64,000 nt of DNA from Natronosalvus caseinilyticus (lineage in GTDB: Archaea > Halobacteriota > Halobacteria > Halobacteriales > Natrialbaceae). Where the stretch lies: NCBI RefSeq assembly GCF_017357105.1, contig NZ_CP071596.1:124001-188000 (forward strand). Direction: 5' to 3'. Under the pieces are notes generated by a model that saw only the letters and a program-made list of their open reading frames with translations, did no database searches and was not told the DNA's origin. This document shows positions 2,747-64,000 of the stretch, piece by piece (positions within the stretch are counted from its first letter, which is position 1; each line of letters begins with the position of its first letter). The position numbers and the translations under genes are program-made.

Positions 2747-2886
2747 GCGCTCGGTTCGAGGGCGGGTCTCGAGGCTCAAGGCTCGACTCTTCGATCTCGA
2801 GGCCCGAGAGTCGGCGGTCGTGCAGGCAGTGCGAGCGAGAATCGGTCACTCCGACGATTTTTGTCGATCCCGACCGTACCGCGAGT

Positions 2887-3393
2887 ATGGACTTCGACGT
2901 CATCCAGGGCGACATCGCGAACCAGTCCGCAGACGCCCTCGTCAACGCCGCCGGAACCAGCCTCCGGATGGGATCGGGCGTCGCCGGCGCGCTTCGGCGC
3001 GGGGCCGGCCCGGAGATCAACGAGGAGGCGATGGCGAATGGACCGGTCGACCTCGGCGAAGTCGCCGTCACGGACGCCTACGACCTCGAGGCCGAGTACG
3101 TCGTCCACGCGGCGGCGATGCCTCACTACGGCGACGGGAAGGCCACTGCAGAGAGCATTCGCGACGCCACCCGAAACGCCCTCGAACGCGCCGACGACCT
3201 GGGCTGTCGGTCGCTCGTGATCCCCGCCCTCGGCTGTGGCGTCGCCGGCTTCGACCTCGCCGAAGGCGCCGAGATCATCGCCCGAGAGATTCAGGCCTAC
3301 GAACCGAGCACGCTCGAGGACGTGCGATTCATTGCCTACGACGAGGATGAGTTCGAGACGGTTCGACGAGCCGTACGTCGACTCCGGGGCTGA
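2887..3393 (+). CDS. Macro domain (ADP-ribose binding/hydrolase) protein
   Basis: The 168-residue protein is essentially one macro domain of the AF1521/YmdB type, which binds ADP-ribose and often hydrolyses O-acetyl-ADP-ribose or removes mono-ADP-ribose from proteins. Visible motifs are GDIANQSADALVNAA (adenine site and the conserved Asn), the Gly-rich GSGVAGALRR loop, VVHAAAMPHY, and the phosphate loop PALGCGVAGF near residue 115. The open frame extends upstream to 2710, but the ATG at 2887 starts exactly at the domain and gives family length, with an AT-rich stretch about 25 bases before it. It lies just downstream of the M24 gene on the same strand. Confidence 0.92.
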   Translation: MDFDVIQGDIANQSADALVNAAGTSLRMGSGVAGALRRGAGPEINEEAMANGPVDLGEVAVTDAYDLEAEYVVHAAAMPHYGDGKATAESIRDATRNALERADDLGCRSLVIPALGCGVAGFDLAEGAEIIAREIQAYEPSTLEDVRFIAYDEDEFETVRRAVRRLRG

Positions 3394-3468
3394 CTGGAGC
3401 CTGTGCCCCCAGACTGAACCGGAGCCAACGACTCCGTGACCGAGCCGAAGCAACGACGACGGTCCCAA

Positions 3469-3921
3469 CTAGTCGTGAATCGCTCGTTCGTCGAGCCATC
3501 GGTACGTCTCTTCCTCCAGTGAAAGATGACCCGCGACGAACGCGCCGCCCCGCGGATTTGGCTCGAGGCGGTCCCGGTCGACTCGTTGGGTGATACCGAC
3601 GTCGTCGACCAGCCACCCGTAGTAGGCGCCGGCGTCGTCGGTGACGCCGAACACGAGGAGCATGGGATCGCTCGAGCGATCGATCGACGCCGTCGGCGCA
3701 GCGAACACGCGAGCGAGATCGACGACCCGGATCCGCTCGCCGCCAACGGCGATTTCGCCCGCGTTCCAGGGATCCTCGGCGTCGTCGACGACGCCAATGT
3801 CACCGACACCCAGCACCGACGAAACTCGCTCGGATTCGACGCAGTAGCCGTCCGTCTGCAGTTCGAACGGCAGTATCGAAACGCGGTCGGTTGGCTCGCT
3901 CGAGCCACCAGTCTCCATCAT
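3469..3921 (-). CDS. CheW-like domain protein
   Basis: The 150-residue protein matches a CheW-fold domain. It contains the pattern of successive beta strands VSSVLGVGDIGVV, GEIAVGGERIRVVDLARVF and MLLVFGVTDDAGAYYGWLVDDVG. CheW proteins bridge chemoreceptors and the CheA kinase. In haloarchaea, diverged CheW-like proteins also occur outside the chemotaxis cluster. No CheA, CheY or receptor gene is in this window. The next gene on the same strand (3996-4580) is a HalX response regulator, 74 bases upstream, which suggests a shared signalling role, though the link is inference. The start is at one of two adjacent ATG codons (3921 or 3918). Confidence 0.8.
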   Translation of the reverse strand: MMETGGSSEPTDRVSILPFELQTDGYCVESERVSSVLGVGDIGVVDDAEDPWNAGEIAVGGERIRVVDLARVFAAPTASIDRSSDPMLLVFGVTDDAGAYYGWLVDDVGITQRVDRDRLEPNPRGGAFVAGHLSLEEETYRWLDERAIHD

Positions 3922-3995
3922 TCAGTTCAGACGGAGACGACGCTGGAAAATAACTGTTCCGACAACCAATCACGTCGCAGTCGCCCGGTTTTCTA

Positions 3996-50714: not shown

Positions 50715-50882
50715 TTACAGGTCGCGGGGCTGGACCGTCTTCCGGTCGTTGTCTTCGGCACGTCGGGCAGCGTCCTCGAGCAGCTCGGACACTTCCTCGT
50801 CGAGTGCTTCGTAGAAGTCCGAAGCGACGTTCTTGTCATCGAGTGCTTCCTTTACGGCGGCTTTGACGATAAGGTCTGCCAT
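50715..50882 (-). CDS. DUF1931-type small histone-fold protein
   Basis: The 55-residue acidic protein begins LIVKAAVKEALDDKNVASDFYEAL and ends AEDNDRKTVQPRDL, the pattern of the DUF1931 histone-like family. The sequence matches one histone fold (three helices). A TATA element (50909-50916) is centred 30 bases before the ATG at 50882, so a leaderless transcript is expected. It may bind DNA or act as a chromatin-associated factor; this is inference from the fold. It is the last ordinary core gene before the tRNA fragment. Confidence 0.85.
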   Translation of the reverse strand: MADLIVKAAVKEALDDKNVASDFYEALDEEVSELLEDAARRAEDNDRKTVQPRDL

Positions 50883-51470
50883 ACAGAATACCCGTTCCCG
50901 TTTCCCTACTATAAAGGTTCTGTTTGTGAGCGGCGAATTCGGGCTCGAGCGGCCCGATAGACCGTCTTTACGCACACCACCCACCAGAAAGTATATGTCG
51001 AAGGAAGTTCCGGCGGGCGCTGGACCCCCTCGAATCGGCCCAAACTGCCCTCGAACGCGCTCGCGCGCGCTCTCGAGACGACCTATCGGTATCCCAGCCG
51101 AAGAAGGGTGGCCCCGTTCACCGCGTTCGTACGACCTCGGGGTGACCCTGCCGTCGACGGCGGACCGCATCGACAAGGCACAGAGGCGGCAAGACGACGT
51201 TCCAAGCGACAGTCGGAACCCGGGATTGATCGGGAACGATGCGCTGTTCGCGGGTTGGTTCGACCTGGTCGGGAACTCGATGCTCCTATACGCGACGATA
51301 TCGGTTCGCGAAACCGATTCGGAGGTCGGCTGGATCGTCGGCAGTATCATTCAGCTGGCTCAGAATCGAACGACCGACGAATCGCTCATAGCACTGGACA
51401 GCGGCTATCGGGGTCGTTATCTACGAACTGAAGGAGAATTCACTCGTTCGAGAAGTACCAACGCGAGAAG
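50883..51470. other. Mostly unassigned intergenic region before the att site
   Basis: The DUF1931 promoter (TATA 50909-50916) lies at the left end. A weak frame (50995-51477, plus strand, 160 codons) opens at ATG 50995, but its first half is low-complexity and it runs into the tRNA fragment. Its C-terminal half (SMLLYATISVRETDSEVGW) is more protein-like and could be a remnant. I do not call it a gene. Confidence 0.4.
50909..50916 (-). promoter_or_regulatory. TATA element of the DUF1931 gene
   Basis: ACTATAAA on the plus strand (TTTATAGT on the coding strand) is centred 30 bases before the ATG at 50882. Confidence 0.6.
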
Positions 51471-51517
51471 AGCCTAGGCCGGGATTTGAACCCGGGCTCT
51501 CGTCCTTACCAAGGACT
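51471..51517 (-). pseudogene. 3' half of tRNA-Thr(GGT); likely att site of an integrative element
   Basis: Reading the minus strand, this fragment contains an anticodon arm with loop TTGGTAA (anticodon GGT), a five-base variable region, a perfect T arm (CCGGG, TTCAAAT, CCCGG), the seven bases CCTAGGC of the acceptor 3' strand and discriminator T. The 5' acceptor strand (GCCTAGG) and the D arm that should precede it do not occur upstream, and no intron explains this: the sequence that follows at 51518 onward does not contain a 5' half. Such 3'-tRNA copies mark the far end of elements that integrate into tRNA genes. Confidence 0.8.
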
Positions 51518-51840
51518 TCTTCGAGATCGCCTCAAACCGGCAACTTCACGGCCACTATCGCCGGTTCTCGACCTGACTCGTACCTTCTCATCCCGAAATA
51601 ACTACACGGACCTATAAGTAAGCGATGATACACTCTCGGGAGCCACAGGAACACGTACCGGAAGATAACCTACAGAACCAGCCGTAGCCGCTGAAACTAA
51701 TATTACCGACTGGTCTTGGTCAGTTCGAGGCTTGACGAGCACTTGTCGAAAAGCGGGGTACTCCCCAGTACAGGAATGGGTACTGTCTCATGAGCATACA
51801 GCTAAGTAATATATCCCTGGATAAGTAAACCGGTAAACAA
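51518..51840. other. Gene-free left end of the island
   Basis: There is no coding frame. The right end holds a TATA-like element (TAATATAT, 51807-51814) that serves the 499-residue gene. A possible hairpin with arms ACCGGC and GCCGGT (51537-51566) lies next to the att fragment. Confidence 0.5.
51807..51814 (+). promoter_or_regulatory. TATA element of the 499-residue island protein
   Basis: TAATATAT is centred 30 bases before the ATG at 51841. Confidence 0.55.
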
Positions 51841-53340
51841 ATGAAACAGCGAGATGTCGTATTGTTCGCTCTCTACGCTCTTCTTGGGATGCTGGTTTTC
51901 GTTACGCGATTACTGACTCTCCCACTCGAAGTAACAGCATTGATTGCTCTCATCGCGGCTGTAAGTGTCCCTACAGCCCACCGGGTAGAAAACATCTACA
52001 AACGTAGGCGTGATCAGCAAGCCCACCGAAAGCGTATCTCTGAACTGGTGAGCCGTGTAAATGAACGTGCCTCCGAGATTGGTCTTCAAATAGTGGATCA
52101 AGGCGAGATCATCGACACCTTGGTCAAGGATGACGAGGAACCGACGCTCGAAAAGATATATGAGAGTTACATTTACGAGCGTTTCGGAGAGCTACCAGAC
52201 TATCAGCAGGAGATTCTCCTTATCCTTCTCCTTTCGCGCGAGGTTGACTCAAGTAAACGCCCTATCGAGCAAGCACGGTTGAAAACACAGATTGCATCGC
52301 TATTGTCGGATTTCAATCTTGGTTCCCTCGATCCGCGAACCATTGAGTTACTGGGCGCATACGACAAGATTGAGCATAAAGGAATAGAACGGACGGAGGT
52401 TACAGCACTATTCGACCACGAGCCAGAGAATCCCCGTGATTTGGCCTTAGAGTTCGCTACTGACTATGGGACTACTGACCAACTTGCGATTGTCCTGTTC
52501 AATGATCGCGAGCGTTCAACTGAACTCAGGAAAACACTGGGTCGTCTAATCGCCCGTGGGAAGATCGACACTGAGACGGTCAACCGTGAGACCGCTGAAC
52601 GAATCAAAGACGAGATGGAACAGATCGGAGATGATGCCACGAAGTATCTGGTTTTCTCCAGGAGAATGCACTATGATGATGCTTTCGAGGAGGCTATAGA
52701 CCGATTCCCACACTTGCGTATTGGTACGAAATACCCCGAAAATGGGTTTCCTGATGCCGCGGAGTATATGCGGGTCTATATGATCTATCCAGAGCACGAC
52801 TATGGAAGTGCCGATCGCTTCTTAGAGGAAGCACTGAAGCCAATGGTGTCTGAGGAAATCCTCGATGAACACCAAGATGCATTTGTTGCCGTGATGCCGC
52901 TCGAACTTTCGAGGCTATCAATCTATCCTGAACACGAAAACGTTGACGAGCACCTGTCGGGGACCCACGAAGCACTGATGTTCCTGAAAACAGGCGCAAG
53001 CGAGGATCTATCAGAAGTCGTCTCAGACCGCGTTGTGAGTGACGTGGGCATCTCGGAACTACTGGCCGTTCTCCCCTTCAATGTCATTACACCCGACATC
53101 AACGAACATGAGAAGGAACTAATCATAGAGCACTACGACGAACTCCAAGATCGATTTGGTGTATCTGAGCTGTTCGATTGGGCGGATATTAATCCCGAAG
53201 ACTTGGGGAATGCCCTTGCTGAAATCGATAACGATGTAGAAGATGAACGGTGGGAAGAACTTGCTGAGACGATTGTGGAGAGAGCTGAGAAATATTCAAC
53301 CGCGACTTACGGTGAGGAGCCAACCTCTGTCTCTCGATAA
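51841..53340 (+). CDS. Membrane-anchored protein of unknown function
   Basis: The 499-residue protein starts with two hydrophobic stretches (VVLFALYALLGMLVFVTRLL and VTALIALIAAVSVPTA, residues about 6-48), then a basic/charged coiled-coil-like segment (about 52-85), and a long soluble part that is mostly helical and acidic. No nuclease, ATPase or phosphatase motif is visible. Its internal pattern (repeated helices with DIGISELLAVLPFNV-type hydrophobic segments) is compatible with a helical-repeat scaffold. The codon use is AT-richer than the core. I cannot assign a family. Its position at the element's edge makes it an accessory gene. Confidence 0.85.
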   Translation: MKQRDVVLFALYALLGMLVFVTRLLTLPLEVTALIALIAAVSVPTAHRVENIYKRRRDQQAHRKRISELVSRVNERASEIGLQIVDQGEIIDTLVKDDEEPTLEKIYESYIYERFGELPDYQQEILLILLLSREVDSSKRPIEQARLKTQIASLLSDFNLGSLDPRTIELLGAYDKIEHKGIERTEVTALFDHEPENPRDLALEFATDYGTTDQLAIVLFNDRERSTELRKTLGRLIARGKIDTETVNRETAERIKDEMEQIGDDATKYLVFSRRMHYDDAFEEAIDRFPHLRIGTKYPENGFPDAAEYMRVYMIYPEHDYGSADRFLEEALKPMVSEEILDEHQDAFVAVMPLELSRLSIYPEHENVDEHLSGTHEALMFLKTGASEDLSEVVSDRVVSDVGISELLAVLPFNVITPDINEHEKELIIEHYDELQDRFGVSELFDWADINPEDLGNALAEIDNDVEDERWEELAETIVERAEKYSTATYGEEPTSVSR

Positions 53341-53360
53341 GGGCGATACATTGGAACCTC

Positions 53361-53867
53361 CTAACTGACGATAGATTCGCTGTCGGGGATCGGTTCCAGC
53401 GCGGAAACAGGCACCAGATAGTTGTAATGGCCAAACTTCGATTTTGTTCGGTCTCTATCGAGGACCGTCTCTTTCGTCGCCGCCCCTAAGAACGTCACCG
53501 TAGTGCCGTCCAGATGCCCGAGGACATAATAATCAGAGTTGACGCGGCCTTCCTTCACCGGTAAGGCGTACGGCTCCTTCTGGCTCGTCTTAACATCAAC
53601 TGTCCGCTCAACCCCATCAATAGAGACCTCAAAATCCACGCCCTCGTCCGTCCACCCAACGAGTTCAGTATTGATCTGAAGATCAGCATAGATGGCAAAC
53701 GCCATCTCACCCATAAGTCCAACCTCATGCCGGTCCTCAGGATTCACACCCCAGGTCTCCGACTCGTTATCCCAATCCACGTATTCTTCGAACGACTGGT
53801 TTCGCTCCTTCGCGATTTCACGGACCTGTCGAACATATCGGGGAGGTATATCTACAGAGACCGTCAT
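53361..53867 (-). CDS. PD-(D/E)XK nuclease-like protein
   Basis: From the ATG at 53867 the protein has 168 residues. A helical N-terminus (IPPRYVRQVREIAKERNQSF) precedes the nuclease-like core: Glu54 in GLMGEMAFAIY, Asp78 in DEGVDFEV, and Asp91-x-Lys93 in TVDVKTS. This spacing of E, D and DxK after a beta-hairpin is the PD-(D/E)XK superfamily arrangement. Members cleave DNA or RNA. A longer frame (start at 53924) adds 19 residues. It converges with the 499-residue gene, ending 20 bases beyond that gene's stop. It may be a solo restriction or nicking enzyme. Confidence 0.75.
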   Translation of the reverse strand: MTVSVDIPPRYVRQVREIAKERNQSFEEYVDWDNESETWGVNPEDRHEVGLMGEMAFAIYADLQINTELVGWTDEGVDFEVSIDGVERTVDVKTSQKEPYALPVKEGRVNSDYYVLGHLDGTTVTFLGAATKETVLDRDRTKSKFGHYNYLVPVSALEPIPDSESIVS

Positions 53868-54007
53868 CCGTGAATCCCGGCCCCCGTTCGGAAGCTCGTG
53901 AGTTCCTTGAGGACCATATACCAACTCACGCTGAACGTCATATCTGCGAAGAGGTGGTCGGAGACCAAAACCGTGAGGGACGCCCAGTTTCGAGTTCAGA
54001 CGACCGC

Positions 54008-54024
54008 GGCTGTTGGCATGAATC
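54008..54024 (+). repeat. 17-bp direct repeat, left copy
   Basis: GGCTGTTGGCATGAATC is identical to 57682-57698. The two copies flank five genes (54183-57632). The adjacent bases differ on both sides. Confidence 0.8.
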
Positions 54025-54153
54025 GCCTTTTTTAAATGGTTGAAACAACCGGTTGGTGAAGACTGTGTATTGATCGCTACTCTTTAGATTCTGACAACGG
54101 CCAGTAATCACTGGGCTCCGGAAATCGAACCAGTTAGGTAACTCTCCACGAAG

Positions 54154-54161
54154 TATTTATG
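54154..54161 (+). promoter_or_regulatory. TATA element of the small membrane protein gene
   Basis: TATTTATG is centred 25 bases before the ATG at 54183. Confidence 0.55.
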
Positions 54162-54182
54162 ACCGGATCTGAAAACTAAAGT

Positions 54183-54434
54183 ATGACTGATGAGTTCGCC
54201 GGCCCCCGGAAGCTGCGGTACTTTCTATACCTGCTACTGATAGTCGTCTTCGGGGCTGTTTTTTCTACGATACTCGCAGATTTCTACGGGATCACGTTTC
54301 TCGAACCCCTACTGTGGTGGTTCGTAGAGAATCCGATGGTTCTGTTTGAGCTTGCAGGAGTCTTCTCAATCATCGCCCTGATCCTCATTGTGGCAATAAA
54401 GGCGCTGAAACTGGCCGATAACAGCGGTTTCTAA
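54183..54434 (+). CDS. Small two-helix membrane protein
   Basis: The 83-residue protein has two hydrophobic segments (about 14-38, FLYLLLIVVFGAVFSTILADF; and about 52-78, MVLFELAGVFSIIALILIVAIKAL) and no motif I recognise. It is the first gene inside the 17-bp repeats and precedes the MBL gene by 165 bases, so it could be a separate transcription unit. In defence islands, small membrane proteins are often effectors or holins; nothing here proves that. Confidence 0.65.
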   Translation: MTDEFAGPRKLRYFLYLLLIVVFGAVFSTILADFYGITFLEPLLWWFVENPMVLFELAGVFSIIALILIVAIKALKLADNSGF

Positions 54435-54599
54435 TTCGCTGTTGCCACAACCAGAGAGAGTCTTGTGGATAGTGGACGGACTCTCTCGGACAGAACGCCT
54501 GTTGATGTCAACGGCGAACCCAGCTCACAAGATCAGATGACCACTTTCACTCCGGTTGGGCCATTTACTTAGACATTCCCGATAACTATCTTCTAAGAT

Positions 54600-55604
54600 A
54601 TGGTCCGTTACGATCATCTTGATGTCCATTTCCTCAATGTCGGTCACGGCGACTGTACGATCATTCACCACCCGAAGAGCGAGAAGCGCAAGGAGGGAAG
54701 GGTGTCAATCATCGATATTAACGATTGGGATCATCTAAAGCCAGAAGAGACGGATCAGTTTATTGCCGGTCTGAGCTCATACTTACAACAACAGTCCTCA
54801 TCTGGATATTTTGAGAAGCAAATCTCAGAAGAAGAGTACGCAGAAGAGTATCTCGATGATCCAGTGGAGTATTATCAAGAAGCCTTCTCAGGTCTGAAAA
54901 ACAAGGTTTGGCGTTTCATCTCTACTCACCCAGATATGGATCACCTCGCTGGTTTGAAACAGTTTCACGAGGAGATCGGGTTCGATGTTATGTGGGATAC
55001 GCCCCACTCAAAAGAGATGGATACTGGTGATGGATGGTACGAAAAGTTCAATCGAGAAGATTGGTATCGATATGAAGCAATCCGAGGCGGAGAAACGGAT
55101 GTGAACAATATCAACCCCAGAAGAGAATCTCAAAAGAACTTCTGGGAACAGGACAATATACAGATACTACACCCATCGCACTCGTTTGTCGAGGAGATTG
55201 ATGAACAGTCGTCGGGATATAATGATGCCAGCTATGTGCTGAAACTCACTCACGGAAATCAAGCGATGCTGTTACCTGGTGATATAGAAGAAGACGCTTG
55301 GGAAGAGATACTTGACTACTGGGGACCAGACGTGTTGTCAGATGTGAATATCTTAAAAGCATCTCATCACGGCCGGAAGAGCGGTTTCCATCGCGAAGCG
55401 ATCGAAGAAATGGACCCAGATTTAGTTGTGGTTAGTGTCGGCAACAAGGACGAAAGCGATGGATACGGCCTCTATTGGGATGCTTGTGGTGATGACACCA
55501 ATATAATATCCACACGTCAGTATGGGACTGTAAGAGCCGTTTCAACCGGTAGAAGAACAATGGTTAGTTGTGCCGAGCCAGACGGGATCTTTGACTTACC
55601 CTGA
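54600..55604 (+). CDS. ComEC-like MBL-fold hydrolase
   Basis: The 334-residue protein is a metallo-beta-lactamase-fold protein of the ComEC/Rec2 group. It starts LDVHFLNVGHGDCTII (the common FxxVGxGDxxxI opening). The metal motif is THPDMDHLAG with His110, Asp112, Asp114 and His115, followed by LPGDIEEDAWEE near 227 and LKASHHGRKSGFH near 255. The ComEC family includes phosphodiesterase/nuclease-like domains. Here the domain stands alone without a transporter part. It is 2 bases upstream of a membrane protein gene, so the pair is one operon. The AT-rich codon use is clear. Confidence 0.88.
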   Translation: MVRYDHLDVHFLNVGHGDCTIIHHPKSEKRKEGRVSIIDINDWDHLKPEETDQFIAGLSSYLQQQSSSGYFEKQISEEEYAEEYLDDPVEYYQEAFSGLKNKVWRFISTHPDMDHLAGLKQFHEEIGFDVMWDTPHSKEMDTGDGWYEKFNREDWYRYEAIRGGETDVNNINPRRESQKNFWEQDNIQILHPSHSFVEEIDEQSSGYNDASYVLKLTHGNQAMLLPGDIEEDAWEEILDYWGPDVLSDVNILKASHHGRKSGFHREAIEEMDPDLVVVSVGNKDESDGYGLYWDACGDDTNIISTRQYGTVRAVSTGRRTMVSCAEPDGIFDLP

Positions 55605-55606
55605 CT

Positions 55607-56299
55607 ATGGTCCAGAGTCAGTTTTCAGCATACGATTTTATCGCAGATATTACACCAGGAGCTGTAGCCATCGGGCTGTCACTTACTCTGCTTCCAGAGG
55701 GTCATTTCATTCTCGATGAGGCTCAAGAAGTGGGTGTTGCTGCTGGGCTTACGTTTGTTATTTTTGCATATGTGGTTGGACACTTGATCCAGGCCATCGC
55801 AAGTCCGATTGACACCTACTGGGCTAAATATAGAGGATTTGCGTATCCATTTGAGAACGAACTTTCAGGAGAGGATTCAGATTCTTCATCCGATGATGAG
55901 GGCTCTCTTGATCAAGTATCGGTGAATGAAAAGTTCACTTCTGAGGTTGAGTCCCATTTCTCGGGCGAGTTTAGTAATACAGATATCTTTTTTCTCACCC
56001 AAAGTCGTCTCTGGAACGAGGATATTGGTCGTATGCGACGATTCCAAGTTCTCTACACGTTCTTCCGAAGTCTATGGGTAGTTTTCGCGATCGGTACAGT
56101 TCTTCACGTCTTGATACTCGTTGCGAAGTGGTTTGAATATTACAACTCGTTCTTGGGGACAGAGGATTCGATAGTTCTGATTTCAGGACTTACCGTTGCG
56201 GCACTTTTGGCTTACTATCGACGGAAAAAGATGCATAAAAAGATGGCCAAAACGATGGTTATTGATTTCTATGCTAATATCCTTGTAAAAGAAGACTGA
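55607..56299 (+). CDS. Multi-pass membrane protein, operon partner of the MBL protein
   Basis: The 230-residue protein has about four hydrophobic helices: two near the N-terminus (ITPGAVAIGLSLTLLP near 16; GVAAGLTFVIFAYVVGHLI near 43), two in the second half (FFRSLWVVFAIGTVLHVLILVAKWF near 153; IVLISGLTVAALLAYY near 188), and a Ser/Asp/Glu-rich loop at about 88-105. Its basic end carries RRKKMHKKMAKTM. I do not recognise a family. The start is 2 bases after the MBL stop, and an obligate functional pair is plausible. Confidence 0.8.
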   Translation: MVQSQFSAYDFIADITPGAVAIGLSLTLLPEGHFILDEAQEVGVAAGLTFVIFAYVVGHLIQAIASPIDTYWAKYRGFAYPFENELSGEDSDSSSDDEGSLDQVSVNEKFTSEVESHFSGEFSNTDIFFLTQSRLWNEDIGRMRRFQVLYTFFRSLWVVFAIGTVLHVLILVAKWFEYYNSFLGTEDSIVLISGLTVAALLAYYRRKKMHKKMAKTMVIDFYANILVKED

Positions 56300-56453
56300 G
56301 CCAACACTATCGCAGAAAATAATCTGACACTTTCATTGGTTGAACTCATGGGTTTGGTTTGGTACACTGGAGGGAAAGCGGAGAAATCACGTTAGCTAAC
56401 TTCCGCTCACCTATGACCAGAGACTTCATTTCGTCCCAACGAAATATCTCGCT

Positions 56454-56879
56454 ATGGAGATCGGACTCGTGAGCTGTACGAAGAGTAAACGCGAGCAAGC
56501 CGCAGAACCCGCTGACCTCTATATTCCGTCGACGTTCTTCAGTAAGGCGCGTGAGTACGTCGAAGCCAACCACGACCGCTGGTATATCCTTTCCGCGAAA
56601 CACCATCTACTCGATCCGTCTGGGCCACCTATCGAGCCATACGATGAAACACTAACTGGCGCACCAGTCGCCCGGAAGCGGGAGTGGGCCGAAGTAGTAT
56701 ACGTTCAGCTCCAGGAGCAAGGTCTTCTCGACGCCGGCAATCGACTGGTGTTTCACGCGGGACGAGACTACTACAGCGAACTCATCCCGTTGCTGGACGA
56801 CACGCCAGTCGAGGTGGAAACCCCTACTGATGGCCTTCTGTTCGGCGAGACGCTCTCGTGGTACAACGAACACCTCTGA
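56454..56879 (+). CDS. DUF6884-like protein
   Basis: The 141-residue protein begins with LVSCTKSKR and continues with ADLYIPSTFFSKAREYVE, RWYILSAKHHLLDP and the PYDETLTG segment. This is the pattern I associate with the DUF6884 family, short cytosolic proteins of unknown biochemical function often near DNA-modification or nuclease genes. The Cys/Lys at the start and the His pair suggest a catalytic site, but none is established. It lies 42 bases before the GIY-YIG-like gene on the same strand. Confidence 0.7.
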   Translation: MEIGLVSCTKSKREQAAEPADLYIPSTFFSKAREYVEANHDRWYILSAKHHLLDPSGPPIEPYDETLTGAPVARKREWAEVVYVQLQEQGLLDAGNRLVFHAGRDYYSELIPLLDDTPVEVETPTDGLLFGETLSWYNEHL

Positions 56880-56921
56880 AAATCCCGAGCAATTTTATGT
56901 CCCACCTCTGAAGGGAGTGGT

Positions 56922-57632
56922 ATGTCGCGTCGCTCAGATCTCGATAACCTCTATGAGCTCCTCGACCGTCTCGAAGCAAACGTAGGCGGTAAACAACGAC
57001 TCAAGAACTGCACTGGATACATGGATTGGCCGAAGAGAGGCATCTACTTTTTCTTCGCAGACGATGAAAGGCGTGAGTCGACAGACCAGCCCCGGCTCAC
57101 CCGTATCGGCACTCACGCAGTTTCATCCGGCTCCAGCACGTCGTTGTGGAATCGACTCCGGACACATCGTGGAGCGAACAGAGGAACCTACGATGGCGGG
57201 GGAAATCATAGGGGGTCGGTGTTCCGCAAGCGGATCGGCGAAGCTCTGATCGAGCGAGAGGGGTTTCACGACGAATACCCATATTGGGGTAACGGATCCA
57301 GTGCGGATCGAGATCGACGGCTTGCCGAGTTAGAACACGAACGCCGCGTAAGCCAGTACATTCGCGACCTCCCGTTCCTCTGGGTCGACGTCGAAGACGA
57401 GCCCAGCCCGGAGAGTGACCGAGCCTACATCGAGCGGAACGCAATCGCTCTCGTCAGCAACTACCAGAAGGACTCACTCGACCCTCGTGACGACGACTGG
57501 TTGGGACGCGTCAGCCCCCGCCACGAGATTAGCGACTCGGGACTATGGAACATCAACCACGTCGGAGAAGAGTACGACACGGCGTTTCTGGACCGGTTGT
57601 CTGACGCTGTAGAGAAGACATCGGATCCCTGA
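56922..57632 (+). CDS. GIY-YIG-like nuclease-domain protein
   Basis: The 236-residue protein resembles a GIY-YIG domain in its first 100 residues: WPKRGIYFFFAD near 37 (the GIY strand), LTRIGTHAVSSGSSTSLWNRLRTHRG near 56-82 (the YIG-equivalent strand is RIG, followed by the helix with conserved Arg). The rest (about 95-236) is charged, with no recognised domain. GIY-YIG enzymes nick DNA. The downstream Glu normally needed for catalysis could be in FRKRIGEALIERE near 100. It is the last gene inside the 17-bp repeats. Confidence 0.7.
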   Translation: MSRRSDLDNLYELLDRLEANVGGKQRLKNCTGYMDWPKRGIYFFFADDERRESTDQPRLTRIGTHAVSSGSSTSLWNRLRTHRGANRGTYDGGGNHRGSVFRKRIGEALIEREGFHDEYPYWGNGSSADRDRRLAELEHERRVSQYIRDLPFLWVDVEDEPSPESDRAYIERNAIALVSNYQKDSLDPRDDDWLGRVSPRHEISDSGLWNINHVGEEYDTAFLDRLSDAVEKTSDP

Positions 57633-57681
57633 GAAAATGGCGATCTGACGGCTCTCTGGCCGTCGTAGCGTTCTCCCTGGA

Positions 57682-57698
57682 GGCTGTTGGCATGAATC
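57682..57698 (+). repeat. 17-bp direct repeat, right copy
   Basis: GGCTGTTGGCATGAATC is the exact copy of 54008-54024. It lies between the GIY-YIG-like gene and the M48 peptidase gene of the restriction operon, 3.67 kb from the left copy. Confidence 0.8.
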
Positions 57699-57800
57699 CG
57701 CGCGGTGCCGGAATCCACATTCTCGCATCGGATTTGGGCCTGTTGCTTAACCAGCAGGCACTAAACGGCGCCAGGCGACCCAGATGGAACTGAGCGGTAG

Positions 57801-58544
57801 TCAGAGAGTCAGAGAGTTCCCGTTTACCCGGAGCCATTCGCGGCGATCCTCGTAATCCGGAATGAGAGCACCAACCGTGTTCCAGAACGCGCCAGAGTGC
57901 TCATTATGTACTGAATGGGCCAACTCATGAGCGATAACGTAATCTTGGATTCGAACGGGTGCCCGGATCAACCGCCAGTTGAGGCGAACGGTTCCGCTGT
58001 CGTATTCACCCCACCGACCGTCGATCTCTCCGACCCATACTGGCACATCGTCGAGCCCCAACCTCGACTCAAAACGCGACACTCGGTTCGGAAGTTCTTC
58101 CTCCGCACGCTCAACAAACCAGTCAACGACAGCTTGGTGCTTTCGACGAACGCTTACGTCGTCTACATCTCCATCGAACCGGTGGACGCGAAGAGTGAAC
58201 GTCTGCTCGTCAAACGATAACCTCGGTTCGGGGACATCCGCCTCAACGGCCTTCAGCGGATACTGTCGTCCCCGATACTGGAGTTTCTCCCCGCTCATGT
58301 ACTCCTTCGGATACGGCGGTCCTTCTTGCTCTTTGAGTCCGTAGAGTTTCTGAAGCAGCCACTCTTGGCGAGACTCAAGCACGTCCTCAACATCTGCTAC
58401 CGTCGCGGTCATCGGGGCTGTAACGGTCAACTCTAAGGACTTGTCGATTGACAGTCCTATTGTCTCCCGATTTTCGGACCAATCGACCGTGTAGGGCACG
58501 ACCGTTTGGCCGATATGATGTCGACGCTGTAGGCGTTCGCTCAT
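57801..58544 (-). CDS. YgjP/M48-type metallopeptidase (restriction-operon associated)
   Basis: The 247-residue protein is a YgjP-like (DUF45) M48-clan peptidase with zinc motif HELAHSVHNEH at about 206-216 and the upstream GRWGEYDSGTVRLNWRLIRAP characteristic of YgjP. The start at 58544 overlaps the hsdR stop by 4 bases, so it is cotranslated with the restriction subunit. YgjP-type genes often sit beside type I restriction genes. A role in turnover or control of the endonuclease is inferred, with ClpXP-like control of HsdR in E. coli as the only known precedent for proteolytic alleviation. Confidence 0.9.
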   Translation of the reverse strand: MSERLQRRHHIGQTVVPYTVDWSENRETIGLSIDKSLELTVTAPMTATVADVEDVLESRQEWLLQKLYGLKEQEGPPYPKEYMSGEKLQYRGRQYPLKAVEADVPEPRLSFDEQTFTLRVHRFDGDVDDVSVRRKHQAVVDWFVERAEEELPNRVSRFESRLGLDDVPVWVGEIDGRWGEYDSGTVRLNWRLIRAPVRIQDYVIAHELAHSVHNEHSGAFWNTVGALIPDYEDRREWLRVNGNSLTL

Positions 58545-61501
58545 TGGTAATGATTTCGCGCGAGTTCGATGACGCGGTTGGTTAGCTCCCGCCGCTCGTC
58601 ACCCGAGATGTCGATATCAGACCGATACAACTCTCCCGTCACTTCCTTCCGCATCCGGTTCTGCAGCTGCGTCTTCTCCTTCCATTCAACCTTCGTCACG
58701 AACTCCTCAACGGTTCCAACTAAGTCAGCGGTGAGCTCGATGAGCTCTTCCTCCTCAGCATCGTGCTTGTCCAGCACGTCTTCAAGGGCGTGATAGAACG
58801 AGAGATCGGTCTCGTCGCGGAGCCCTTTGTTCCGCGCCTGCTTGTCGCGGGAGCGAATCTCGTCCATCAACGCCCGAAGCTCCTCGATAGTCTCGCGCTC
58901 GTCGTATCGCCCTTCTCGGTACTTTTCAATGAGCTCTTCGAGCCGATCTCTGAGAGAACCGTACTGCACTGGATCTTCGTCGAACCGAACGTTGAGCTCG
59001 TGCTTGATTGCATTTTGCATCTCACTCGCCCGAGCTTCGTCGCTTTTTAAGCCTTCAAGTTTCGCGTCGTACTCGACTTCCTCCATAATCGAGACGGGTT
59101 CATCGTTCAAAACCTCGATGCCCCGTGACGTGATGTGGTCCTGAATCAACTCGCGGACCTTTGCTCCCGCCCCTTCGAGGTTCATCGTCTCATCGCGGTA
59201 CCGCTCCTTCGCCTTTCCATAGATCGTGCTGAGACGCTCAAGATCCTCCCGGTAGGGGTTCGCCATGGGATCCGGGAGGACAACGTCCATCAGTTGCGAA
59301 AACCGCTTAAACGCGTTCTTGAACTCGATTCGGCGGTCGTCCGGTTCAAGCGACTGAACGCACTGTTCGACGTCATCGAGATCGTGGAAAAACGAGACCG
59401 CCTTGCTGTGGGCCGCCTCAAGATCAGGCTGTTTGTCCTCGACCGGCACCATCGCCCGCTCGACATCTTTGGAACTGAACATCGCGAGCGCCTCCTTCAA
59501 TTCGTCCGAGACGCCGTAGTAGTCGATGATAAGCCCGTGGGTCTTCTCCTCGAACGGCCGGTTCACACGAGCGATCGCCTGCAACAGGCTGTGCTCCCGT
59601 AGTGGCTTATCGAGGTACATCACCTGAGCCACCGGCGCGTCGAAGCCTGTCAGGAGCATGTCACAGACGATAAGCAGCACAACCTCGCCGTTCGGATCGA
59701 CGAACGATTCCTTGTACTGGCTCTTCTCGGAGTCGCTGGGAGTCCACTTCTTGATGTGTTCAGGGTCATTGTGCCCCTCAGAGATAATGACTCGTGACTC
59801 CGGCCCGTTCAGGTTGTCAAGGGTTTCTTTGTACCGAATCGCCGCCTCCTTGCTTGTGGTGACGACCATGCCCTTGAACGGCTCAGGCACGTCGTTCTCG
59901 TAGTGTTCGATGATGTCCAGTGCGACTCGGTCGATTCGAGGTTGTGCCTCCGCGAGATCTTGCGTGCGGGCGTATCGCTTCTGGATCTCCGCCTTTTCTT
60001 CGTCCGTCTTGTCCGAGAAGATGCGATCGAATAGGCGATCGAGCGTTTCGCCTTCGAGGTGGATGTCGGCAAGACGTCCCTGATACAGGATCTCGACCGT
60101 CGCGCCATCCTCCAGTGACTGATCGATCGTGTACGTGTCAATGTAGTTCCCGAACGTCCGGCGGGTGTTGCGCTCGTCTTTCTCGATGGGGGTTCCGGTG
60201 AACCCAACGTAGAAGGCGTTCGGGAGCGCCGTCCGCATATTGTTCGCGAACTCCTTGTCCTGCGTCCGGTGGGCCTCGTCGGCCATCACGTAGACGTTCT
60301 CGTTACGGGAGAGCACCGGGAAGTCCTCTTCGTCGTCCGTGGTCTGGAACTTGTGAATCAGCGTCGTGATCGTCTCGCCCGCGTCGTACGAGAGCCGATC
60401 GCGGAGATCCTCGATGCTCTCGGCCTTTTTCGGATTTGGGAAGCCACAGCGTTCGAACGTTGCGTGAATCTGGTCGTTGAGCGCCCGGCGGTCCGTGACT
60501 AAGAGAAGTGTCGGGTCGTCCTCGTTTCGGCGCAGCTTCAGCGCGAGAAAGAGCATCGTGAGCGACTTACCGGAGCCCTGGGTGTGCCAGACGACACCGC
60601 CCTGTGCCTCGCGCCGTCCGCGCTTGTCGATCCGTTCGAGTGCCTTCCGGACCGCTCGGTACTGCTGATACCGAGCGACCATCTTGATTGCGCCGCTCTG
60701 TCGGTTCTCGAACACTGTGAAGTGCCGTAACTGGTCAAGCAGGCGCGAGGGCTCGAACAACGCATAGAGCATCCGGTACTGATCCGGGAGATAGTCATCG
60801 AGGTCGAACAGCTCGATTAGTTCGTCGTCTTCCAGCGGGTAGGCGTCCCGCCAGGGCTTGTACTGGTCTTTCGGTGTTCCGTACGTGCCCATAACCGCCC
60901 CCTCCATCCAGGCCGCGACCGAAAACTGGTTGTACCGGAACAGCTCCTCGGCCCCCTCCGACTCTCCGTCGCGTTCGTTTTGATAGCGGGTGAGCTGATC
61001 AAGCGCCTCCGAACGCGGCTCTGGGATCTGGGGACTCTTGCACTCGACGACGCCGAGCGGGATTCCGTTGACGAACAGCACGATATCGGGCTTGACGACC
61101 TCGACCGGTCCCTCAACCCGGAACTGGTTGAGCGCGAAGAAGTCGTTGTTCTCGGGGTTCTGGTAGTCGATGTACTGGACCGTCTGGTGCTGCTTGCCGT
61201 GTCCGCGGTTCTGTTCGACAGAGATGTGGCGGACGAGCTTCTCGTGGATCTGCTCGTTTTCGTCCATCGTGCTCGTCCCAGCGACCTGTGTGATCTTGTG
61301 GACGGCCTTGTTCAGGTTGTTCTCGTTGAGCCACGGATTCAGGCGCTTAACTGCATCGCAAAGACGCGGTTCGAGTACGGCCGAGGACTTCGTCTCCCGA
61401 GGATCGATCCAAGTGGAGCGTTGCTGGTCGACGACCTCCCAACCGAGTTGCTGGAGTGCGTCAAGGGCGGGACGTTCAGACTCGACGTACTCGTTGGGCA
61501 T
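58541..61501 (-). CDS. hsdR: Type I restriction enzyme R subunit
   Basis: HsdR is the ATP-driven translocase and nuclease of the type I complex. The 986-residue protein has an N-terminal PD-(D/E)XK nuclease with Asp139 (KPDIVLFVNG), Glu153 and Lys155 (VVECKSP), then helicase motifs: Walker A HTQGSGKSL (Lys312), DEAH in VMADEAHRTQ near 413, FTGTPIEKDE near 434, motif V-like VCDMLLTGFDAPV near 640 and QAIARVNRP near 676. The C-terminal third is helical (subunit contacts). It overlaps the M48 gene by 4 bases, and 2 bases separate it from hsdS. Confidence 0.97.
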   Translation of the reverse strand: MPNEYVESERPALDALQQLGWEVVDQQRSTWIDPRETKSSAVLEPRLCDAVKRLNPWLNENNLNKAVHKITQVAGTSTMDENEQIHEKLVRHISVEQNRGHGKQHQTVQYIDYQNPENNDFFALNQFRVEGPVEVVKPDIVLFVNGIPLGVVECKSPQIPEPRSEALDQLTRYQNERDGESEGAEELFRYNQFSVAAWMEGAVMGTYGTPKDQYKPWRDAYPLEDDELIELFDLDDYLPDQYRMLYALFEPSRLLDQLRHFTVFENRQSGAIKMVARYQQYRAVRKALERIDKRGRREAQGGVVWHTQGSGKSLTMLFLALKLRRNEDDPTLLLVTDRRALNDQIHATFERCGFPNPKKAESIEDLRDRLSYDAGETITTLIHKFQTTDDEEDFPVLSRNENVYVMADEAHRTQDKEFANNMRTALPNAFYVGFTGTPIEKDERNTRRTFGNYIDTYTIDQSLEDGATVEILYQGRLADIHLEGETLDRLFDRIFSDKTDEEKAEIQKRYARTQDLAEAQPRIDRVALDIIEHYENDVPEPFKGMVVTTSKEAAIRYKETLDNLNGPESRVIISEGHNDPEHIKKWTPSDSEKSQYKESFVDPNGEVVLLIVCDMLLTGFDAPVAQVMYLDKPLREHSLLQAIARVNRPFEEKTHGLIIDYYGVSDELKEALAMFSSKDVERAMVPVEDKQPDLEAAHSKAVSFFHDLDDVEQCVQSLEPDDRRIEFKNAFKRFSQLMDVVLPDPMANPYREDLERLSTIYGKAKERYRDETMNLEGAGAKVRELIQDHITSRGIEVLNDEPVSIMEEVEYDAKLEGLKSDEARASEMQNAIKHELNVRFDEDPVQYGSLRDRLEELIEKYREGRYDERETIEELRALMDEIRSRDKQARNKGLRDETDLSFYHALEDVLDKHDAEEEELIELTADLVGTVEEFVTKVEWKEKTQLQNRMRKEVTGELYRSDIDISGDERRELTNRVIELARNHYQ

Positions 61502-61503
61502 TG

Positions 61504-62805
61504 TTAGTCTGTGTTGACGCGGACTGTGCCGGTGAGGAGATCCTGCATAAGGCCGCGTTTTAGTTCCTGTAAATCCTCTTTCCTACCTTTTTCCTCATCT
61601 ATTTTTTTCTGTGCACATCCAATGATGTTTGCAATTCGTTCTTGTTCTTCCGCTGGGGGAACAGGTAGTTGGAACGCCTCAAAATCCGCCTTGGTAATAT
61701 GGACTTGACCTGCAGACCCTCCAACCATCGTCTTAAGCAATCTTAGGTGTTGGTTTAGTGAAAATGCGAAGAATCGCTTATCCAACTCTTTCTTAGGACG
61801 AAGATTGTAGATGTGTTGATTAAGATATGCATCATCTCCTGACCAAATGTATGCGCCGAGTGAGGTCTTGATATTTCCCGCCCAGCAGAATAGCAAATCT
61901 CCGACTGTGACATGGTACTTGTCGTCTACCTCGAAGTTTGCGTAATTGGTTTCAGCTTCTGCGCCGGGCCGCAGGTCTTGGATTCTAATAATCTGGGTTC
62001 CCTCTTCTTCCCACTCTTCAGTCTTGAAGGCACGCCCATTGATTGCCTCAAATAACTGGCCACAGGGCTCCATATCCCAATGGTCTGGAATCTGTAATGT
62101 TCGAGGGCCAATCTGGATCTCTTGAGTGGAGCCATTAGATAGTCCTCCAATCAAAAGATCTTGCATTAGACCCTGCTTCAACTCCTTCGCCTCCTCGATA
62201 ATTTTATCCGTCTGTTGGATCTGCTCGTCGACCGTCGAGAGGACATCGGCGATTCGGCGCTGTTTGGGGAGTGGTGGGAGTAAGACCTCTGAATTTTTGA
62301 TTTTTGTGACTGTAAGTCGAGAGATTCCGGTCCCACTCATCTTTGACTGCATTACCTTTTTGAATAGCGGCCAGTTGAGATGATGAGTTAAAAAGTCTGG
62401 GTCAAGACGGTCCCGATCAGTCCGAATTAGTGCGACACTCGATAGTAAACTAAACTCGAAATCGAGCGTGTTTTTCCGCGCAATTCCAGTATTTGCTCCG
62501 TCTTTGACGTAGAGAACATCCCCAAGCTGTGGGTCACAGCGAGAGTAGATTTTCTTATGATCTTCTTCGGAAATGTACCCAATATCATCGAGGCGGAACC
62601 CATTCTCGCGGATGTTTTTGGAGGTTATATAAGGGTACCCCTCATCTACCGTATCTGGTGAATTATGTGTCCCATCCGTTATCTTTTGACAAACCGAATT
62701 TGTCTTGACTACTTCCCATTTTTCCGGAATTCTCACCGTCTTTGGGCCTAAATGAATCTCTTTGTACCCCTCTCGAACCTTTGATTTTTCCACAGCCTCG
62801 CTCAT
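61504..62805 (-). CDS. hsdS: Type I restriction enzyme specificity subunit
   Basis: HsdS determines the DNA sequence recognised by both modification and restriction. The 433-residue protein has the standard two-fold layout: each half is a target recognition domain followed by a helical spacer. The first half opens LGPKTVRIPEKWEV and its spacer reads LPKQRRIADVLSTVDEQIQQ (near 180); the second opens IGPRTLQIPDHWDM (near 231) and its spacer reads PAEEQERIANIIGCAQKKID (near 383). Each spacer ends in a LMQDLL-type stretch. GC is lower than in hsdR and hsdM, which is usual for horizontally exchanged specificity genes. The start overlaps hsdM by 4 bases. Confidence 0.96.
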   Translation of the reverse strand: MSEAVEKSKVREGYKEIHLGPKTVRIPEKWEVVKTNSVCQKITDGTHNSPDTVDEGYPYITSKNIRENGFRLDDIGYISEEDHKKIYSRCDPQLGDVLYVKDGANTGIARKNTLDFEFSLLSSVALIRTDRDRLDPDFLTHHLNWPLFKKVMQSKMSGTGISRLTVTKIKNSEVLLPPLPKQRRIADVLSTVDEQIQQTDKIIEEAKELKQGLMQDLLIGGLSNGSTQEIQIGPRTLQIPDHWDMEPCGQLFEAINGRAFKTEEWEEEGTQIIRIQDLRPGAEAETNYANFEVDDKYHVTVGDLLFCWAGNIKTSLGAYIWSGDDAYLNQHIYNLRPKKELDKRFFAFSLNQHLRLLKTMVGGSAGQVHITKADFEAFQLPVPPAEEQERIANIIGCAQKKIDEEKGRKEDLQELKRGLMQDLLTGTVRVNTD

Positions 62806-64000
62806 ACGTACTCCAATTCCTCCATATACCGCTGCAGTTCTTCGTCGGTCTCCCGGCGCTCCTCGGCCAATTTATCCAACTCCTGTAGCCTCTCGCTTAC
62901 GTCGATCGGTTCCTCGGGTTCGGTCGTATCGACGTATCTCGGCACGTTTAGGTTCCAGTCGTTCTCCTCGATTTCCTCAAGGTCAACAAGCCGACTGTGA
63001 TGGTCCTCTTCGCGCCCAGTCAGGAACGTCTCGGCGAGGTACTCAACGCCCTCGTCGGTAAGCTGGTTCTGATTCGAGAGTTCTTCGAACACCTGTACGT
63101 CTGACTCCCGAAGCTTCTGATCCTCGGCGTAGATGAACTGAACTTTATCCCCTCTCTCCTCGGGCTTGTCCTTGTTCAGTATCAGGATACACCCCGGCGA
63201 CGAGGTGTTGTAAAACAGGTTCTCCGGTAGCGCGATCACGGCCTCGACGAGATCGTCCTCCAGGATCGGCTTACGGATTTTCTTCTCCGATCGCGAGCGG
63301 AACAGCACGCCGTTGTCCATGACGACGCCCGCCTTTCCGGTCTCGTTGAGCGAGGCGATCATGAGCTGAATCCACGTCCAGTCGCCGCGGTTCGACGGCG
63401 GGAGTCCGTACGGGAAGCGGTTGTACGGCTCGTTGTCCTCTACCCAGTCCTTGTTCCATTCCTTCTGATTCCACATCGGGTTCGCGATTACCCGATCGAA
63501 CACTTCCAATTCGTCATGCTCGGTGACGCGCTTGGGGTCTGTAATGGTGTCGCCCTTCTCGATCTTTGCGTCGTACAGCTCATGCAGCAGGACGTTCATC
63601 TGGCCGATCGCCCACGTGTTCAGGTTCCTTTCCTGGCCATACAGCGAGAAGTCGTTCATGTCTCCACCCGACTCGCGGATGTGCTCAGCAGAGTAGATGA
63701 GCATCCCCGCTGACCCACAACAGGGGTCGTAGACGCGATGACCCGGTTTAGGGTTGACGCACTTAACGATGAGACGCACGACCGCTCGCGGTGTATAGAA
63801 CTCGCCGCCCTTCTTGCCGGCGTCGTCGGCGAATTTGTTGATGAGGTACTCGTAGGCCCGCCCGAAAATATCGGGGTCCTTGAGGTCGGCATTCCGGTAG
63901 CGATGTTTGTCGAAGTGTGAGACCAAATCCGAGAGCAGAGCGTCCGGGAGACGCTCTTTGTCGTTGAAATCGACTGTGGTGAGCACGCGGTCGGCGATGG
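62802..64000 (-). CDS. hsdM: Type I restriction enzyme methylase subunit, 5' part missing (window edge)
   Basis: HsdM is the N6-adenine methyltransferase subunit. The visible 394+ residues contain FGRAYEYLINKFAD, the SAM-binding DPCCGSAGML and the catalytic NPPF-type motif as NPMWNQKEW, plus ENLFYNTSSPGCILIL. The N-terminal helical domain is outside the window, and the frame is still open at 64000. A GTG at 63986 is only an internal codon. It is the first visible gene of the operon, followed by hsdS (4-base overlap) and hsdR. The replaced motif residues (M-W for P-F) are a common variant in type I enzymes. Confidence 0.95.
   Translation of the reverse strand, partial: IADRVLTTVDFNDKERLPDALLSDLVSHFDKHRYRNADLKDPDIFGRAYEYLINKFADDAGKKGGEFYTPRAVVRLIVKCVNPKPGHRVYDPCCGSAGMLIYSAEHIRESGGDMNDFSLYGQERNLNTWAIGQMNVLLHELYDAKIEKGDTITDPKRVTEHDELEVFDRVIANPMWNQKEWNKDWVEDNEPYNRFPYGLPPSNRGDWTWIQLMIASLNETGKAGVVMDNGVLFRSRSEKKIRKPILEDDLVEAVIALPENLFYNTSSPGCILILNKDKPEERGDKVQFIYAEDQKLRESDVQVFEELSNQNQLTDEGVEYLAETFLTGREEDHHSRLVDLEEIEENDWNLNVPRYVDTTEPEEPIDVSERLQELDKLAEERRETDEELQRYMEELEYV

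Follow-up and report, generated by a model that had tools for sequence, protein, structure and literature searches.

A stand-alone ComEC-type MBL gene paired with a Csx27-like membrane protein gene on an integrated element of Natronosalvus caseinilyticus

We analyzed a 64,000-nucleotide stretch of the genome of Natronosalvus caseinilyticus (contig NZ_CP071596.1, positions 124,001 to 188,000; hereafter called the window) and found that a gene for a ComEC-type MBL protein forms a pair with a gene for a Csx27-like membrane protein. This kind of pair is real and widespread. The pair in the window is an archaeal relative of a candidate that already stands in defence-gene catalogues under the name PDC-M48. 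It is not new in kind, and it probably helps cells resist foreign DNA. Our literature searches on the window pair or on PDC-M48 found no experiment, and the eLife 2020 survey of conflict systems does not mention an MBL with Csx27.

Results

The gene pair

The two genes of the pair are as follows.

54600..55604, + strand: gene for the stand-alone ComEC-type MBL, 334 aa; motifs D39, H110-P-D112-M-D114-H115, D228, H256-H257-G258
55607..56299, + strand: gene for the Csx27-like membrane protein, 230 aa; four long helices and a central helical domain

The genes lie on the same strand with a gap of 2 nt, and the local GC content at the pair is 0.47-0.50 versus about 0.66 upstream. A sequence-only reading of this DNA had described two tightly coupled genes in an AT-rich setting, the first encoding the metal motif HPDMDH, and our results agree with this description; the motif occupies residues 110-115 of the MBL protein. 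In Natronococcus both genes are kept as a pair (about 52% and 39-42% identity, 4-nt overlap). Since the two genes are conserved together there, the pair in the window is not a product of chance.

The MBL protein

Pfam gave only a sub-threshold match of the MBL protein to Lactamase_B. In NCBIfam the protein matched the C-terminal MBL part of ComEC/Rec2 (5e-9), and its best match in PADLOC was PDC-M48B (6.5e-19), a model that also matched 19 of 19 MBL relatives. When the profile of these relatives was compared with the PDB, MBL structures of ComEC were obtained (9ic4, 7e-20; 30bt, 2.5e-18) with the motifs aligned. The AlphaFold2 model of the protein (pLDDT 86, pTM 0.88) had the ComEC beta-lactamase-like domain 9ic4 as its best Foldseek match (3.3e-18) and the phosphorylcholine esterase Pce as its second (1e-11). 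Because the NCBIfam, PDB-profile and Foldseek 9ic4 matches agree, we class the product of the first gene as a ComEC-type MBL that stands alone, as the earlier reading had proposed.

The window MBL shares the HxDxDH, D and SHHG motifs with the MBL domain of ComEC/Rec2. Residues D39, H110, D114, H115, D228, H256, H257 and G258 are invariant in the 19 relatives, and D112 is nearly so. In contrast to ComEC/Rec2, only the MBL part of which is matched, the 334-aa window protein has no fused competence channel domain, and its membrane partner is a separate and different protein. ComEC MBL domains act as nucleases. The first protein is probably a soluble ComEC-type MBL phosphodiesterase, and its most likely activity is that of a metal-dependent nuclease.

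The protein was matched more weakly to MBL components of other known systems, namely LmuA of Lamassu and RTasMBL of DRT in PADLOC and those of 6A-MBL and Avs1 (Avs1a) in NCBIfam. The E values of these four ranged from 1e-11 to 2e-3, indicating a related MBL domain, but none of the partners of these systems was found beside the window pair.

The substrate of the MBL need not be DNA, because the second fold match is Pce. The pair might accordingly be an abortive-infection effector with another chemistry, in which the MBL would cleave either the head group of a lipid or a signalling nucleotide, the membrane protein would serve as a pore or depolarising unit, and the infected cell would die or stop. 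Csx28, the other accessory protein of Cas13b, forms a membrane pore (PMC12669027), which would fit such an effector if Csx28 and Csx27 are kin. However, the sequence profiles match ComEC, with just one weak match of the relatives' profile to a cyclic-nucleotide phosphodiesterase (0.0098), and we consider an effector of this type unlikely.

The membrane protein

For the membrane protein nothing significant was found in Pfam. PADLOC matched it end to end with tm_4 (8.8e-10) and with Csx27 (1.9e-9), residues 4-225 being aligned to positions 2-203 of the 206 positions of the Csx27 profile. The NCBIfam equivalog CAS_Csx27 (NF040557) matched it at 1.8e-8, with a score of 34.7 bits, below the curated cutoff of 65. 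Thus, the earlier statement that this protein has no recognised domain holds for Pfam but not for PADLOC and NCBIfam, in both of which it is Csx27-like. The sequence contains hydrophobic helices, and the AlphaFold2 model (pLDDT 84, pTM 0.79) has long helices at residues 8-26, 44-75, 141-175 and 185-229 besides the central helical domain, as expected from its earlier description as a four-helix membrane protein. Judging from full-length profile homology and the four membrane helices of the model, we assign the protein to the Csx27 superfamily.

Cas13b systems use Csx27 as an accessory protein (PMC12669027). The window protein resembles Csx27 of type VI-B in its full-length matches but differs from it in the score below the cutoff and in its partner, which is an MBL and not Cas13b. 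No cas13b gene was present among the neighbours scanned around the pair, and a search for a CRISPR array found no direct repeats of at least 22 bp in 50800-64000.

According to a review (PMC7642515), Makarova et al. 2019 placed Csx27 in predicted operons together with components of natural transformation and proposed that it may act as a channel for ssDNA. Following this prediction for the Csx27 family, the pair could be a device for the uptake or processing of DNA, a split counterpart of ComEC in which the Csx27-like protein would be the ssDNA channel and the MBL nuclease would degrade the other strand. The ComEC type of the MBL is consistent with this proposal. On the other hand, the membrane-protein model gave no clear match to a solved channel or to any other solved fold (Foldseek best E 0.18; VIA-align best Z 6.6, to a helical bundle). 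Moreover, the pair has a sporadic distribution and rides on an integrated element, and among its neighbours in the window we saw no other competence genes. We regard a role in DNA uptake as doubtful. Foldseek and VIA-align likewise did not show a likeness of the membrane protein to Csx28 or to the ComEC channel. The work of Makarova and colleagues from 2019 (Makarova et al. 2019) reportedly covers a wider four-helix family with ComEC-type partners.

Pairing in haloarchaea

A pattern scan of the genome contigs with the membrane protein alone gave no relatives, and the relatives were therefore gathered by whole-genome searches and via the MBL. With the tm_4 model of PADLOC by itself, nearly all of the haloarchaeal relatives go undetected, and the counts given here therefore rest on protein and alignment searches.

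Csx27-like genes were found in 14 of the 125 genomes of the family. An MBL of the window kind lies upstream in six of the 14 loci (the window, L019, L021, L022, L023 and L025), directly or with one small gene between. The Csx27-like genes of the other eight (L020, L024 and L026-L031) have no MBL beside them, and their neighbours include winged-helix regulators, a SocA/Panacea protein, and DUF5677 and DUF4238 proteins. Csx27-like proteins may serve several partners.

When the MBL was used for the search, all seven other haloarchaeal loci carried a Csx27-like gene in the immediate neighbourhood. These loci are the Haloplanus aerogenes plasmid, the Halobacterium DL1 plasmid (G152 being counted as the same), Natronococcus A-GB1, Haloferax denitrificans, Halonotius terrestris, G030 and G132; two of them, Natronococcus (G092) and G030, belong to the 14 found via the membrane protein as well. 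In Halonotius the Csx27-like gene is convergent to the MBL gene. Haloplanus and DL1 each have two MBL genes. The one most closely related to the window MBL stands by itself on the opposite strand; the other is the first of three successive genes, with a gene of about 97 codons in the middle and the Csx27-like gene last. Two divergent MBL genes, one of them leading to the Csx27-like gene, are seen in Haloplanus (L032), Halobacterium DL1 (L033), G132 (L122) and Haloferax denitrificans (L040), and a type I R subunit and a peptidase of the SprT family are also encoded close to the related cluster of Haloplanus. Strict MBL relatives occur in four of 392 Halobacteriota genomes; that is, their distribution is sporadic.

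Pairing across phyla and relation to PDC-M48

The wider set consisted of 79 loci from many phyla and one viral contig, and these were picked for the MBL and not for the partner. The next gene encoded a membrane protein with helices near both ends for 39 of the 77 evaluable MBLs. Among ORFs of similar size at other places in these loci, 52 of 384 (14%) encoded such a protein (Fisher p about 1e-11). Both the fraction and the p-value should be taken as approximate, because the criterion for helices is coarse and related loci do not count as independent observations. The two genes often overlap by 1-11 nt across phyla, and half of the wider MBL relatives have no detectable membrane partner. Some neighbours in other phyla are R-M, bSEFIR, TIR and E1-E2/JAB genes, mixed with many housekeeping genes. 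Homologues that were mostly apart or in housekeeping contexts would have spoken against the module proposed in the earlier reading. We found instead that the pair recurs in haloarchaea and in bacterial phyla, and that in haloarchaea it is sporadic and lies on plasmids or islands.

The window pair has the two-gene layout of PDC-M48, and the membrane partners of related MBLs match PDC-M48A, with E values down to 3.6e-55. Because these partners match PDC-M48A and the MBLs match PDC-M48B, PADLOC-DB 2.0.0 (2023) already lists this type of pair as a phage-defence candidate, and the earlier description of the module as undescribed has to be withdrawn. The window membrane protein itself is not matched by the PDC-M48A models, up to E 1, and is nearer to Csx27; by those models, therefore, the window pair is not a formal member of PDC-M48. 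In a profile comparison, the Csx27-like set containing the window protein joined a partner set that holds strong PDC-M48A matches (97.4%, E 1.3e-11, nearly full length). The Streptomyces-type partner set matched the Csx27-like profile moderately (93.9%). The Bacillota set did not match it (11.7%), so kinship with Csx27 is not established for every membrane partner. PDC-M48 is itself a prediction. PDC candidates come from a guilt-by-embedding study that is cited in PMC12988326 and PMC13092281, and most are without experimental validation.

The integrated element

The AT-rich region with the pair is a 30.6-kb element integrated at tRNA-Thr(GGT). The following features of the window belong to the setting and not to the pair.

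51471..51516, no strand: 46-bp partial copy of tRNA-Thr(GGT) (its 3' part), which forms the left end of the element
56454..57632, + strand: genes for PDC-M57A (DUF6884) and PDC-M57B, directly after the pair; PADLOC 1.7e-29 and 1.5e-76
57801..63986, - strand: YgjP-like peptidase and type I R-M genes HsdR, HsdS and HsdM

The right end of the element is at window coordinate 82031, outside the window, and the whole element occupies C1:175471-206031 of the genome (G000). The same-genus genome G114 is 92% identical to the window DNA up to 51080, and its core DNA matches again from C1:206031, which is window coordinate 82031. An intact tRNA-Thr lies at C1:206032-206103, whereas G114 has a single tRNA copy and no insert. 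A tyrosine integrase gene (PF00589, 3.8e-15) adjoins the right end, beside the intact tRNA. From the 46-bp end repeat, the integrase and the comparison with G114, we conclude that the pair is cargo of the element. The restriction-modification island proposed earlier is thus present, with YgjP, HsdR, HsdS and HsdM adjoining, and is part of this element.

Such a location would also suit a pair without an antiviral role, namely an element-maintenance or toxin-antitoxin pair that holds the integrated element in place, and relatives of the pair are on plasmids. However, relatives are widespread in bacterial genomes, some of them beside known defence genes, and we judge this explanation very improbable.

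Several other genes of the element were noted. PDC-M57A/PDC-M57B is another predicted two-gene candidate defence system. Two PDC-S11-like candidate defence genes (L121:1455-2441 and 2822-3970, both - strand; 2.4e-107 and 1.7e-22) are present, one of which carries DUF4268. A second, longer protein (326 aa) with a Csx27-like start is encoded at L121:13161-14141 (+ strand; window coordinates 77161-78141, outside the window); the match to the Csx27-like profile (96.9%, E 1.7e-10) covers its first 60 residues, and no MBL gene was seen beside it. The left end, 51841-54434, holds three genes (51841-53340, 53361-53924 and 54183-54434). Their products are a 499-aa protein whose N-terminal part has membrane helices, a 187-aa protein encoded on the - strand, and an 83-aa protein with two membrane helices, the gene of which lies just upstream of the pair. 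We considered these three genes and PDC-M57 as parts of the module and rejected them, as they have no counterpart in the Natronococcus locus.

Discussion

We think that the best explanation of the pair is a membrane-associated MBL phosphodiesterase/nuclease module that acts against incoming DNA or through abortive infection, and we lean towards it as somewhat probable. The earlier reading had suggested a possible phage-defence or abortive-infection module. The Csx27-like integral membrane protein would recruit, activate or work with the MBL at the membrane, presumably through physical interaction, and when the cell is infected or DNA enters it, the MBL would cleave nucleic acid at the inner membrane face, giving an anti-virus or anti-plasmid effect.

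We favour this explanation because the MBL is closest in both sequence and fold to the ComEC nuclease domain and its metal motifs are invariant in the relatives, and because its partner resembles an accessory of a defence nuclease. The recurrence of the pair across phyla, often with overlapping genes, and the listing of the bacterial pairs as PDC-M48 argue in the same direction. So do the position of the pair as cargo of a tRNA-integrated element that also carries type I R-M genes and further candidate defence genes, the sporadic occurrence of the MBL, and the R-M, bSEFIR, TIR and E1-E2/JAB genes among its neighbours elsewhere. Against it stand the half of the wider MBL relatives without a detectable membrane partner and the many housekeeping genes among the bacterial neighbours.

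In a broader proposal, a ComEC-MBL defence module would be general to archaea and bacteria, with Csx27 as its membrane half; Cas13b systems would have borrowed Csx27 as an accessory, and the MBL nuclease would destroy entering viral DNA at the membrane. We put this forward as a speculation with a rather low probability.

One gene pair thus unites three things that have been named separately, namely the CRISPR accessory Csx27, the predicted candidate PDC-M48, and the ComEC nuclease domain. The MBL is a concrete partner enzyme with defined metal residues, and it offers a handle on the role of Csx27-type membrane proteins in a tractable archaeon.
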